From Natronomonas pharaonis DSM 2160 (lineage in GTDB: Archaea; Halobacteriota; Halobacteria; Halobacteriales; Haloarculaceae), in NCBI RefSeq assembly GCF_000026045.1, contig NC_007426.1:2418001-2482000 (forward strand): DNA of 64,000 nucleotides, given 5' to 3'. Made by a program: the position numbers and the translations under genes. Positions 53,443 through 58,473 of the stretch are shown piece after piece. The notes below the pieces were generated by a model, which worked only from the letters and a program-made list of their open reading frames with translations, did not search any database and was not told the origin of the DNA. Positions within the stretch are counted from its first letter, which is position 1; the number at the start of each line of letters is the position of its first letter.

Positions 53443-53975
53443 GCGAGCGTCCGGAACGCCTCGACCGGAATATCGACAGTCTCCAACCGCTCGGAGACCG
53501 CCGGTGGCACTATCGACAACTGCGAGGCCAACCGGCGGTCTCGGGCGAGTGCATCGGTCAACTGTTCGGCGGCAGACAGCCCGCCCACGGCGGCGACAGC
53601 GTTGGCCGCCTCGTCGAGGCTTTCAGCCGCAGCGAGCCGTTCGCCAGCTTCGAGACGGGACTCGACGTTCTGGACCCACGCCGCGACACCTGTCGGAAGC
53701 TCGTCGGCCACCGGTTCAGAAGCAACAATGGCGACCGGCTCCGTGGACACATCGCCCGGCGTCGCAAAGCCGATGCCGACGGGCGCGGGACCGGCTTCGA
53801 CGGTTACGCGGTCGCCGTCCCAGTTCTCGGTGGGGATTCCCTCCCGCCGGGGCGGCCAAACTGGCCCATCACAGCGGGCGACGAGCTGAACACGGCGAGG
53901 GGCATCCGCGCGGACGACTCCCTCGACGAACGTTACGCCGTCAATGTGTCGCGTTTCGGCGTCGATGCTCGGCAC
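53424..53975 (-). CDS. Haloarchaeal protein of unknown function
   Basis: 183 residues from a GTG (VPSIDAETRHIDGVTFVEGV). The N-terminal half is beta-rich (RVQLVARCDGPVWPPRREG, then DRVTVEAGPAPVGIGFATPG), the C-terminal half helical (about 100-183). The open frame continues further up but overlaps the upstream coding region and is Arg/Ser-rich. Last gene of the run that starts with the RAD55-like ATPase. The function is unknown. Confidence 0.72.
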   Translation of the reverse strand: MPSIDAETRHIDGVTFVEGVVRADAPRRVQLVARCDGPVWPPRREGIPTENWDGDRVTVEAGPAPVGIGFATPGDVSTEPVAIVASEPVADELPTGVAAWVQNVESRLEAGERLAAAESLDEAANAVAAVGGLSAAEQLTDALARDRRLASQLSIVPPAVSERLETVDIPVEAFRTLAQSRRS

Positions 53976-53991
53976 GGGAAGCCTCTGTGCG

Positions 53992-54672
53992 TTACCAGCG
54001 ATAAACCATCGGTCGGAGCGAGACGACCGGGACGCCGAGCCACGCCTCGGCATCGCCCGATGTGGCGAAGTGGCGACACGCAAGCGTCAGCGGTCGTTCG
54101 AGGCTGCCCACGCGGGCGAGCGCCAGCGCCGCTGGAACCGGGCCGGCACCGTCGAACGTCGTCGCCCCACAGCCCGGTAGCGCCGCGACCGCGTCGTCAG
54201 CCGCGGGACGCACCGCCTCGGCGAGCTCAGCCCGGGCGGCCCGTTCGAGATTGCCGAGTTCGTCTTCCAAGCGCAGACGCCGTTGCCTGACATCGCGTGC
54301 CTCCCGAGCACGCTCGCGTGCGGCGTCAAGTCGCTCTTTGGCCGCTGCGTGGTCCGTTTCGGCCTCAGAGAGGTCGGCTATCGCCTGCCGGTATGTGTCC
54401 GCTACGTCGTCGCCGGCTTCAAGCCGGCCACGGAGCGTTGCGACGCGCTCGCGTTCGGCTTCGAGGCGGTCGGCGGTTTCAGCGACTCGCCGTCTGGCGG
54501 CCGCCCGGGTCGGCACGGACGCCGAAAGCGACTGCAGTTGCTCACGAGCCCTCTCGATATCGTCGGCGACGCTTGCTTTGTGGCCGTTCGAGCGTGCAGC
54601 CGCAGCAAGCGCCGCCCGCCGGTCGAGGGTCACTCCCGGCGCGATGACCGCGACGTGGTCGTAGAGACTCAC
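53992..54672 (-). CDS. Coiled-coil haloarchaeal protein
   Basis: 226 residues. The middle (about 35-150) is a long Ala/Arg/Glu coiled coil (ADRLEAERERVATLRGRL and similar). The ends are globular: MSLYDHVAVIAPGVTLDRRA and CRHFATSGDAEAWLGVPVV with one Cys each. It resembles short SMC/GrpE-like helical proteins in shape only. Its ATG overlaps the upstream stop (ATGA type), so it is translationally coupled. Confidence 0.78.
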   Translation of the reverse strand: MSLYDHVAVIAPGVTLDRRAALAAAARSNGHKASVADDIERAREQLQSLSASVPTRAAARRRVAETADRLEAERERVATLRGRLEAGDDVADTYRQAIADLSEAETDHAAAKERLDAARERAREARDVRQRRLRLEDELGNLERAARAELAEAVRPAADDAVAALPGCGATTFDGAGPVPAALALARVGSLERPLTLACRHFATSGDAEAWLGVPVVSLRPMVYRW

Positions 54673-55007
54673 AGCTCCTGTCGCTTGAGTTCGTCCGGCG
54701 ACGGATGCGGAGAATCGACGGCGAACTTCGCATAGGCGGTCGCCGGCTCAGTGCGGTTCTCGTAGGCTTCGGCGGCCTCTCTGACCGACGCTGGGAGGTC
54801 GCGGAACTCATTGAACGGCTCCGTCCGTTCGAGCTGTACGTCGTCCGGGTGCTTTTCGCGAAGCCGCAAGGCGAGAAACGCCCCGTGGTGGGTGTCCGCC
54901 AGCAGCGCGGCACGGCCGAAGCGGCGAATGACGCTTTCCTCGTGGGTTCGGCAGACGTTCCGCAGCGATGTCCGGGCGGCAGTCGAATACGTCACGACCA
55001 GCAGCAC
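54669..55007 (-). CDS. Haloarchaeal protein of unknown function, 112 residues
   Basis: Starts MLLVVTYSTAARTSLRNVCR, then THEESVIRRFGRAALLADTHHGAFLALRLREKH, with helical character and a C-terminal KFAVDSPHPSPDELKRQEL. No transmembrane segment. A TATA-like TTTTAAGAAATAAA (minus strand, about 55026-55039) lies about 25 nt upstream, so this gene and the coiled-coil gene may have their own promoter. No function known. Confidence 0.75.
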   Translation of the reverse strand: MLLVVTYSTAARTSLRNVCRTHEESVIRRFGRAALLADTHHGAFLALRLREKHPDDVQLERTEPFNEFRDLPASVREAAEAYENRTEPATAYAKFAVDSPHPSPDELKRQEL

Positions 55008-55038
55008 GAGCGTTACTGCGCCGCTTTATTTCTTAAAA

Positions 55039-55299
55039 TCAACGCTCTCCAATGCGTTCGACCGTCGGGGCGTCGGCGTCGGTCAGCTCCCGGACGCGCT
55101 CGCGGGCCTCGCGTTCTGAGGCGGCGACAACGACGGTCCCGGTGTCGGCCCGATAAGCGGAGCGTTCGCCGTCGAACTCCGTCGCGAACGTCCTGACCGC
55201 GGCTCTGATGCGACGCTCGCAGGTTTCGAGGTCCGCCTCGCCGGCCTCGAAAGCCGAAAGCGCCGACTCGATCTGTCGGAGCGCGGCGATTCGGTCCAT
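55039..55299 (-). CDS. Haloarchaeal protein of unknown function next to mcm
   Basis: 86 residues: a helical N-terminus (IAALRQIESALSAFEAGEADLETCERRI) and a short alpha/beta C-terminus (GTVVVAASEREARERVRELT). It starts on the base next to the mcm stop codon, so it is in the mcm transcript. A small helical adaptor is plausible, but nothing more is shown. Confidence 0.75.
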   Translation of the reverse strand: MDRIAALRQIESALSAFEAGEADLETCERRIRAAVRTFATEFDGERSAYRADTGTVVVAASEREARERVRELTDADAPTVERIGER

Positions 55300-58200
55300 T
55301 CACACTGTCCGCAGGTGGTCGGTCTGCGGTTCGTAGACGTCGCCCTGACGGCGCAGCTTTTCGATTTCGTGTTCGGCCTGCGAGCGGTCCATCCCCATCT
55401 CCTCGGCGCGGTCGAGAACGACATCGATAGGGGCACCCTCGTCGTACTCGGTTTCGACCTCGCTGATGAGCGACTTGATGTTCTTGATGCGGTCGCGCTG
55501 GGTCTTGGAGGTCCCTGACTCGATGATGTCGGCGTCGAGTTCGCCTGTCTCCGGGTCGACACCGACATCCTCCAGCGACGACCGGACGATTTCGATAACG
55601 CGTTCGGCGTCGTCTTTGGTCGCCGTATCGGAAAGCCGGATGCGGGCGCTGGCTTCGGCCAGCCGGACGAGCGCCTCCAGCTTTCGGGCGGTAATCGGCA
55701 CCGGGTTGTCCTCGCTTTGTCCCTCCAGCCGTAGGTCGACGTAGAACTCCTGAATCGCCTCTTTTGCCTCCTCTGTCATCGTCGGATAGCAGTTCCGCTT
55801 GGCGTAGGCGACGTACTTCCGGAGGAGTTCGTCGTCGATAGCTGGCGCGACATCTTCGGTAACCGAATCGACCTGCTCTTGGGAGACGTTCGAGGTCGCG
55901 GCTTTCGTTCGGTGAGTCTGGAGTTCGCCCGCGTAGTTCGTCTCGATGATGTGTTCGGCGAGCTGTCGGTCCTCCTCCTCGTCGGGCTGGTCTGTGACTG
56001 TAAAGATGAGGTCGAACCGCGAAATGAGCGGCGGGTCAAGGTCAATCTGTTCGGCAAACGGCTCGTATTCGTCGAAACGACCGTGTATCGGGTTTGCGGC
56101 CGCCAGAAGCGAACACCGGGATTTCAGCGTCGCGTTGATGCCTGCCTTCGAGACGCTGATTTCCTGTTGTTCGAGGGCCTGGTGCATCGCCGACTGGTCT
56201 TCCGAGCGCATCTTGTCAAGCTCGTCGACGGCGGCGATACCCTGGTCGGCAAGCACGAGCGCACCGGCTTCAAGCGTCCATTGCTGGCCCTCGCCGAAGT
56301 CGTCGCGGACGGCGGCGGCCGTGAGACCGGCGCTCGAAGAGCCCTTGCCGGACGTGTAGACCGAGCGCGGAGCAATGTTTTTTACATACTGTAGGAGCTG
56401 TGAGTTGTGGGAGACGACGTCGTTCGAGAGGTAGCTGTGTGTCGATTCGACTTCGAGGTCGTAAACCCACTCGTCTTCTGGTTCAACGGGCTCGATAGAG
56501 TCAATTCGGTCCCAGCCGATATCACCGTCGGCGAGCGAGCGGAGCCGCTCGACGTCGTCAGCCACGGCGAGCGCCCGGCAGAGCGCATCGGCAACGGCCC
56601 GTTCTGCATCCGCGACCGCACCGCCGTCCGGCCGGGCCTCGGTTCGCTCGTCGTCGCCGATAGCGGTCCGTGTGGCATCCATCCCGGATGCGAGCGACGC
56701 CTGCGAAGGGTTGAGTTCGTCGCGAGCGGCGGCGATAGCGTCCGAATCGCCGTCGTCGACGCGGTCGGAAAGCGACGACAGCTGTTCAATCCGGCGCTCG
56801 AAAGCAGTCAGTACCGTTTGCAGGCGAGACCGGCTCGGGTTCCGGTCGCCGCGCTCGTACTGCTGGTAGGTCGACCGCGGGAGACCGCAGTCGTGCTGGG
56901 ACAGCCGCAGCGACGTCCGAATCCGGCGGAGCTGGTCGCCGACGTTCGGGATGACATCGGGGGTCGTGGCTGCGTCCTCGCTTCGCACCGCTTCCGCGTC
57001 GGCTGTTTTCCGAGCCGTCACGGAGCCGAGGTCGTCGACATGCTGCCCGAAGTCGTCGCCGTCATCTGCCGGAAGAGCACGCGGGACAGCAACAAAATCA
57101 TTCTCGGAGAGGTCATCGGCGACAAGCGGAGAAAGCCCTCCCTCGGACTGTACGAACAACGGATGGCTCGGCGTCACTTCGAGTTCCCGGCCGCTTTCGG
57201 TCCGAATCCGATACATCTTCTCGGGCGCTTGTCGCTTCCAGACCTTCGTCGCACGGCCGGGCGCAACTGCCCCGCCGTCGGTGGTGAGAACGTCGATATC
57301 CGACTCCTGATAGAACCCATCCGAGATTTCTGTCGGGTCCTCAAGGGTCGATTCGACGATATCTCTGATGGGCTTTTCGTCGCCGCTTGCAAGCGTTACG
57401 GACGTATCTCCGTCGACGCACTTCCCCGTACCGGGGTCGCCGATCAGGAGCATATGGAGGTCACCCCGGATGCGAGAGCCGTCAGGGAGGTCCTTGGTGA
57501 CGCCGGAGAAAAGCTGCATGATGATGGCCAGTTTCTGCTGTTCGTAGCCGTAGATCGACGGGGCCATCGACTCAACCATCTGCTGGTAGATACCGTCGTC
57601 GTTGGAGAGTTCGATAATGCGTTGCTTGTCCTCGTCTGTGATGTCCATGTCTTCGAACTGCTCGTCTTCGATTTCGACCGACATGCCGTCCATGTAAACG
57701 TCGAAGACGGGCGATTTCTCCTGCTCGGAGCCCTGCTGGTCGAGGTGGAGGACCCCAGCCACCCGGACGTGGTCGCCGGCGGTCACCTTACCGGTGATGT
57801 CGTCCTCGATGTGGACATCGATGCTCTGTGGGGTTTCACCGCCGCGAAGCCCCTCAGGAGATTCTTGGACGCGGATTTTCTGGGCGTCGACGAACTCCGA
57901 CTGGTCGAAGTTGATGTCGAAGGGCCCCTGTCGTTCACAGCCCTGACACTCGTGGGGGTCATGGAAGTCGCCGGCGGTTTGGGGGATACGGGTGAGGGTG
58001 CCACAGCGCTGGCACTCGAAGGCGGCTTCGGTGATTTTCGGTCGGACATCCGTCGCCTTGCGGACGATGCCGGTCACCTCAACGAGGTTGCCGCGGTGGC
58101 GCGCACGGATATCGCGAATGCCGGTCGTTTGTTGGAGGTTATGGACGCGAACGTGGGCACGCCCGAGTTGGACATCGACCGGAAGGTCATAGAGCCGCAA

Positions 58201-58413
58201 CGCCTCCTCGGCGTAGTCGCGTATCTGGTCGGGTTGGGCGACGAGGTCGTCTGCGAGGTCGGCGTCGAACCGGTAGAGGTCGTCCCAGTCGATATACAGC
58301 GAACGCTGGTCTTCGGGGTATTTCTGGGCGAGTTGTCCAATCTCGTCCCGGTAGTAGTCGCGGTAGAACTGCTCGAACTTGTCAATTATCTCTGTGTCCT
58401 CCGCGCGTGCCAT
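55300..58413 (-). CDS. mcm: MCM replicative helicase with intein
   Basis: 1037 residues as translated, 698 after splicing out the intein (residues 332-670). N-terminal domain with zinc site C134/C137/C156/C159. The AAA+ core has its Walker A GDPGTGK split from SQLLQY by the intein. Walker B follows in VLADQGIAAVDELDKM, the sensor in LLAAANPIHGRFDEY, the arginine finger in PLISRFDLIF, and a C-terminal winged helix at the end. It unwinds DNA at replication forks as a hexamer. The start MARAEDTEIIDKFEQF is chosen over an upstream ATG 15 codons earlier. It is second or third in the transcript that starts with the RAD55-like gene. Confidence 0.96.
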   Translation of the reverse strand: MARAEDTEIIDKFEQFYRDYYRDEIGQLAQKYPEDQRSLYIDWDDLYRFDADLADDLVAQPDQIRDYAEEALRLYDLPVDVQLGRAHVRVHNLQQTTGIRDIRARHRGNLVEVTGIVRKATDVRPKITEAAFECQRCGTLTRIPQTAGDFHDPHECQGCERQGPFDINFDQSEFVDAQKIRVQESPEGLRGGETPQSIDVHIEDDITGKVTAGDHVRVAGVLHLDQQGSEQEKSPVFDVYMDGMSVEIEDEQFEDMDITDEDKQRIIELSNDDGIYQQMVESMAPSIYGYEQQKLAIIMQLFSGVTKDLPDGSRIRGDLHMLLIGDPGTGKCVDGDTSVTLASGDEKPIRDIVESTLEDPTEISDGFYQESDIDVLTTDGGAVAPGRATKVWKRQAPEKMYRIRTESGRELEVTPSHPLFVQSEGGLSPLVADDLSENDFVAVPRALPADDGDDFGQHVDDLGSVTARKTADAEAVRSEDAATTPDVIPNVGDQLRRIRTSLRLSQHDCGLPRSTYQQYERGDRNPSRSRLQTVLTAFERRIEQLSSLSDRVDDGDSDAIAAARDELNPSQASLASGMDATRTAIGDDERTEARPDGGAVADAERAVADALCRALAVADDVERLRSLADGDIGWDRIDSIEPVEPEDEWVYDLEVESTHSYLSNDVVSHNSQLLQYVKNIAPRSVYTSGKGSSSAGLTAAAVRDDFGEGQQWTLEAGALVLADQGIAAVDELDKMRSEDQSAMHQALEQQEISVSKAGINATLKSRCSLLAAANPIHGRFDEYEPFAEQIDLDPPLISRFDLIFTVTDQPDEEEDRQLAEHIIETNYAGELQTHRTKAATSNVSQEQVDSVTEDVAPAIDDELLRKYVAYAKRNCYPTMTEEAKEAIQEFYVDLRLEGQSEDNPVPITARKLEALVRLAEASARIRLSDTATKDDAERVIEIVRSSLEDVGVDPETGELDADIIESGTSKTQRDRIKNIKSLISEVETEYDEGAPIDVVLDRAEEMGMDRSQAEHEIEKLRRQGDVYEPQTDHLRTV
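56404..57420 (-). other. Intein in MCM, with helix-turn-helix and no visible LAGLIDADG nuclease
   Basis: 339 residues inserted exactly at the Walker A motif, from Cys332 to Asn670, with Ser671 next. Splicing blocks are intact: A (CVDGDTSVTL), B (ELEVTPSHPLF with the Thr-x-x-His), F (DEWVYDLEVESTHSYLSN) and G (VVSHN). Between B and F (about residues 445-630) there are no LAGLIDADG motifs. Instead LRRIRTSLRLSQHDCG..STYQQYERGDRNPSR is a clear Xre-type helix-turn-helix. It should splice and may bind DNA, but homing ability is doubtful. Confidence 0.9.
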
Positions 58414-58473
58414 TGGGGATATGCCCTTTGGCGCGCGACCGGATAAGAAGTTTGCCACGTGACGGCGACGGAA

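Follow-up and report, generated by a model that had tools for sequence, protein, structure and literature searches.

The 64,000-nucleotide stretch of Natronomonas pharaonis DSM 2160 analysed here (the window) carries the core mcm gene, which encodes the replicative helicase. The gene is interrupted at the MCM-a (CDC21-a) site, as defined previously (PMC10643990), by an intein with several recognisable parts:

55300..58458, minus strand: core mcm open frame (Pfam MCM, MCM_OB, MCM_lid, MCM_N)
57421-58458, minus strand: mcm N-extein
56404..57420, minus strand: MCM-a intein, 339 residues, after the Walker A lysine, between GDPGTGK and S
57070..57420, minus strand: N-terminal Hint region, residues 1-117, blocks A and B (Pfam Intein_splicing, NCBIfam TIGR01445; model pLDDT mostly 77-95)
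57007..57060, minus strand: candidate LAGLIDADG scar, residues 121-138, inside DGDDFGQHVDDLGSVTARK, matching the final 18 nuclease-profile positions
56779..56958, minus strand: HTH1, Xre-type helix-turn-helix, residues 155-214 (Pfam HTH_3; model pLDDT mostly 86-95)
56620..56769, minus strand: HTH2, decayed, residues about 218-267 (score z=-3.7; pLDDT <50 at 239-266)
56404..56526, minus strand: C-terminal Hint region, residues 299-339, blocks F and G, with the His-Asn end (Pfam, NCBIfam)
55300-56403, minus strand: mcm C-extein

The spliced MCM is 713 residues long, and its true start may be the ATG at 58413. It shares 86-89% identity with the exteins of core MCMs in relatives, whereas the genome's other MCM paralogue, which has no intein, is only 47% identical. 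Because the window MCM is of this core type, splicing should matter for the main helicase, and because the intein interrupts its ATP-binding site, splicing should be required. An antisense open frame of 679 codons (56407-58446, plus strand) overlaps mcm and probably just reflects the high G+C content of the coding sequence.

The intein translates without stops (CVDGDT...VVSHN) between GDPGTGK and SQLLQYV. It carries Cys1, TPSH in block B, VYDLEV and TH in block F, the terminal His-Asn and Ser+1, and it matches Pfam Intein_splicing (E 1.3e-23) and NCBIfam intein_Nterm (9.7e-21) and intein_Cterm (1.1e-5). By motifs and family matches it is a class 1 intein (Hint domain), and none of the 18 conserved residues of its C-terminal Hint region is changed. 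Its insertion after the Walker A lysine and its grouping with other MCM-a inteins in a tree both place it in the MCM-a class. An earlier, sequence-only reading had described a 339-residue intein in the Walker A motif of the replicative MCM helicase, with all splicing blocks kept, and our analysis bears this out.

That reading also reported no LAGLIDADG motif. No nuclease family matched the window intein in Pfam or NCBIfam even at E<=10, and a profile of the LAGLIDADG domain, made from 78 full-length MCM-a inteins, found only an 18-residue, colinear remnant (4 bits, E 0.057), which the earlier reading had missed. This weak match is probably a nuclease scar, convincing mainly by its position. 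A hidden nuclease is ruled out by these searches. Lacking a nuclease with two LAGLIDADG motifs, the intein is not a LAGLIDADG homing intein. It resembles mini-inteins in having no homing nuclease, but holds much more than a Hint domain, with 339 residues and an HTH that is predicted to fold. Mini-inteins usually have 130-200 residues.

The same search, covering HTH families as the sequence-only reading had proposed, located an Xre-type HTH between blocks B and F, as expected (HTH_3 at residues 164-212, E 6e-8, 33 bits against a cut-off of 23). This domain, HTH1, is genuine; a second HTH behind it, decayed, had been overlooked. Scored by leave-one-out against full-length inteins, HTH1 has z=+0.03, while 6 of the 18 conserved residues of HTH2 are changed. 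HTH1 keeps 27/28 conserved residues, whereas the nuclease linker and HTH2 together have lost 9/25 (P 0.004; P values here treat sequences as independent of shared ancestry, except where stated). In a structure model of the window intein, HTH1 is confident, HTH2 falls below pLDDT 50 and the scar is disordered.

To place these parts, we compared haloarchaeal MCM-a inteins. The search took in 392 genomes of the order and was then extended to genera and families, with one genome per species; it is a sample rather than a complete census, and HTH-less forms are under-counted since the query itself contained the HTH. Full-length MCM-a inteins from within the genus align with the window intein as two pieces (residues 1-123 and 120-339), between which the relatives have about 185 residues of nuclease. 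In L058, these intervening residues match LAGLIDADG_3 (E 8.9e-29), with HTH_3 after them. The comparison, also suggested by the earlier reading, yielded full-length, HTH-only and HTH-less forms: among 101 distinct MCM-a inteins, 47 have the nuclease, HTH1 and HTH2, 31 have the nuclease and HTH1, 17 are HTH-less mini-inteins (177-206 residues) and six are HTH-only. Eight further inteins comprise five full-length and three HTH-only forms. Viral contigs gave only five weak C-terminal matches to the intein. One MCM-a intein (L161, in G175) has its nuclease region split across two reading frames just before HTH1, by a frameshift or a sequencing error.

The full-length layout is Hint-N / LAGLIDADG / HTH1 / (HTH2) / Hint-C. 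HTH1 is present in 83/83 LAGLIDADG-bearing MCM-a inteins and, as no nuclease-bearing form lacks it, we read the HTH as a regular accessory domain of MCM-a homing inteins; in the window it likewise lies between the nuclease scar and the C-terminal Hint part. The earlier description of an HTH "in place of" a nuclease is thus misleading, as the HTH always adjoined the nuclease in these 83 relatives. Its first suggestion, a degraded homing domain with the DNA-binding part kept, fits well: the relatives' layout is identical except for the LAGLIDADG block missing from the window. That an HTH was instead inserted anew into a mini-intein, replacing the nuclease, is suggested only by a first look at the single sequence. 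We reject this as extremely improbable, since every nuclease-bearing relative has a homologous HTH in colinear position and the scar adjoins that of the window.

The window intein is almost certainly a former homing intein that lost its nuclease. Its ancestor would have comprised a splicing domain, a LAGLIDADG nuclease, one or two Xre-type HTHs and the rest of the splicing domain. A single in-frame deletion of about 190 codons, whose junction is approximate as there is no close sister, would have taken out the nuclease except for its last 18 residues, the present scar. Splicing appears intact and homing appears lost.

Besides the window, the HTH-only class (n=9) includes L004, L056, L125, L027, and the pairs L135/L153 and L155/L156. 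In the splicing-domain tree, L056 pairs with L061 (100/81), L125 with L132 (100/100) and L027 with L070 (99/88), each pair joining an HTH-only and a full-length intein, and L004 lies within a 100/96 clade of full-length and HTH-less forms. On a longer alignment, L135/L153 group with the full-length L154, and L155/L156 fall inside a full-length clade (SH-aLRT 100 each). The window intein and its neighbours are poorly resolved. The deletions compared at the DNA level are in frame, remove 549-624 nt and have different junctions. Because the sisters or clade-mates are full-length and the junctions differ, the HTH-only state must have arisen by at least seven independent deletions. A single HTH-only ancestor for all nine is ruled out by tree and junctions. 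Nor are HTH-only forms always confined to single species: two deletions are common to two species each (L135/L153 and L155/L156), and the other five occur in one species each.

These five single-species deletions, several of them beside a close full-length sister, are what would be expected if the nuclease was lost recently and the HTH is a passive relic without a role, the next part to go on the way to an HTH-less mini-intein. In the textbook account of the intein life cycle the nuclease is lost stepwise (PMC8966425, PMC4071816), HTH2 is decayed in the window, and L004 groups with three HTH-less mini-inteins as an intermediate would, albeit weakly (98/69). However, the two deletions that each span two species speak against such a relic, as does the untouched state of HTH1 in the window while the adjacent linker and HTH2 decayed. 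The break points do too. All right-hand breaks fall at alignment columns 318-353, at most 36 residues before HTH1 (which begins at column 354), and none lies inside the 105 residues of the HTHs; HTH-less mini-inteins resume near column 463. With uniform break points, the chance of no break inside the HTHs would be 0.002 if there were seven events and 0.0002 if there were ten. Fold integrity alone could explain this pattern.

The strongest argument against a mere relic comes from L155/L156. These inteins have one common deletion junction, and divergence is similar in their exteins (dS 0.47) and in the inteins themselves (dS 0.36), so their differences arose after the deletion. By the Nei-Gojobori method, dN/dS is 0.16 for HTH1, 0.10 for HTH2 and 0.12 for both (P 2.1e-9), with 12 nonsynonymous changes at 258 sites and 25 synonymous changes at 81; the splicing parts have 0.16 and 0.07. 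In this lineage the HTH is selected, not debris. Since both HTHs have stayed at dN/dS 0.12 since nuclease loss, they must be needed there, and must do something besides aiming a nuclease. This result concerns one pair of relatives, as L135/L153 are too similar for a separate HTH dN/dS and the window copy has no close sister. HTH1 showed no clear relaxation between HTH-only inteins and their full-length sisters, the deletions being undated. It is very probable that the HTH is under selection somewhere in the HTH-only class, and we consider it unlikely that the class as a whole carries a passive relic; that the window's own copy has no current role is unlikely to the same degree.

We also asked whether the decay of HTH2 proves that HTH1 stayed under selection once the nuclease had gone. 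This argument is weakened by an MCM-a intein of the halophilic archaeon J07HX64 (L034:3001-4482), which has a nuclease but a decayed HTH2. HTH2 can thus be lost before the nuclease, and its decay in the window may predate nuclease loss. Downstream of its MCM-a intein, the same J07HX64 mcm gene contains more inteins with nuclease and HTH.

What the HTH does once the nuclease has gone could be to bind DNA, perhaps its old mcm target, and so regulate mcm or couple splicing to DNA, a regulatory use of the kind that the earlier reading raised as its second alternative. The positions which we take to contact DNA, by analogy with 434-type repressors, show no relaxed constraint in HTH-only inteins (6/90 changed against 5.2% in full-length inteins, P 0.47) and are about as conserved as the core. 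For most of the nine sequences, the conservation of these putative contacts may date from the time when the nuclease was still present. In TliVMA, the accessory HTH influences DNA binding and cleavage (PMC8966425), and splicing of the RadA intein responds to DNA (PMC10663303), but the latter response runs through the extein and not an HTH. A retained DNA-binding role is in our view doubtful, about as much so as a relic or slightly more. The broader proposal that MCM-a inteins repeatedly drop the nuclease and keep the HTH as a selected DNA-binding regulator, linking helicase release or mcm expression to DNA, is less likely again.

The reading that we prefer is structural: the HTH would help the intein to fold or splice. 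HTH1 would have been kept as a built-in part of the folded intein, and deletions sparing the whole HTH unit would survive where cuts within it would not. Removal of the nuclease region inactivated splicing of the M. jannaschii TFIIB intein (PMC7765530), and mutation of the nuclease region lowered splicing in Haloferax volcanii (PMC8966425). In whole-model overlays, the window model covers 249 residues of TliVMA (7qss, rmsd 3.0) and 238 of PI-TkoII (2cw7), against 134-164 for most Hint-only inteins; a full-length model of L033 was poor (pLDDT 57) and was left out of comparisons. We favour the structural role because nuclease-side changes lowered splicing elsewhere and the overlay with TliVMA and PI-TkoII extends beyond the Hint domain. 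Against a strict need stand the 17 sampled HTH-less mini-inteins of about 180 residues at the same site; given their existence, the HTH is not strictly needed for splicing at MCM-a, and these mini-inteins must themselves splice, perhaps helped by compensating changes. HTH-only inteins may be a stage toward them. As the reason for HTH retention, a structural or splicing role stands at even chances, whereas the overall explanation, a former homing intein whose nuclease was deleted and whose HTH was kept for folding or splicing, is likely.

The window intein could also have remained mobile, if another intein supplied the nuclease in trans or a neighbouring MCM intein carried it along. Six of the nine HTH-only copies lie in MCM frames with 1160-1890 further residues (MCM itself has roughly 700) and therefore with at least one more intein, and three of these six frames have nuclease matches. 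However, the window MCM has no further intein, and each MCM intein cuts its own site, with neighbouring inteins interfering with co-homing (PMC10643990). Continued mobility is very unlikely.

The known inteins closest to this one share parts of its architecture. Haloarchaeal MCM-a homing inteins, such as that of Haloferax mediterranei, occupy the same site, and the relatives compared here have the splicing domain and HTH unit in common with the window; they differ by the LAGLIDADG nuclease that the window lacks and the HTH2 that has decayed in it. The HTH-less mini-inteins (haloarchaeal forms of ~180 aa, PabCDC21-1 and PhoCDC21-1, PDB 6rpp and 6rpq) likewise lack the nuclease and have the same Hint fold (window model against 6rpq: Z 25.9, 160 residues, rmsd 1.6), but no HTH domain. 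TliVMA and PI-TkoII have an HTH-type accessory domain beside the Hint domain, as in the window, and in TliVMA it lies between nuclease and Hint-C, its position in full-length MCM-a inteins; both retain the LAGLIDADG domain that has gone from the window. The PhoVMA intein (7qst) is, like the window's, a homing intein in decay, although its LAGLIDADG domain is still there, inactivated by a small deletion. The folds of accessory domains in nuclease-associated inteins vary.

Mini-inteins at MCM-a (19/64 without detectable nuclease; PMC10643990) and HTH-like accessory domains of inteins (PMC8966425) were already known. In the open-access literature we found neither the HTH-only state nor its repeated origin nor selection on the HTH, though an earlier report may exist. 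It is an open question why inteins keep accessory domains and whether domains on the nuclease side aid splicing (PMC8966425). At the MCM-a site, evolution has run a domain-deletion experiment of its own at least seven times. Related species carry all three kinds of allele (full-length, HTH-only and HTH-less), so that what the HTH contributes can be tested directly.

MCM inteins at other sites (in L033, L058, L059, L082, L084, L125, L130 and others) also have LAGLIDADG and HTH1-like domains, and the module is therefore common to several intein alleles. Elsewhere in the genome, beyond the window, rpoA2 (RNA polymerase subunit A''; G000 contig C1, about 53700-56700; L166:1182-4205) carries a second intein, whose LAGLIDADG-like domain is followed by a putative worn HTH-like stretch (DQIPNFGDALEAVAEAADIPQRQV...).
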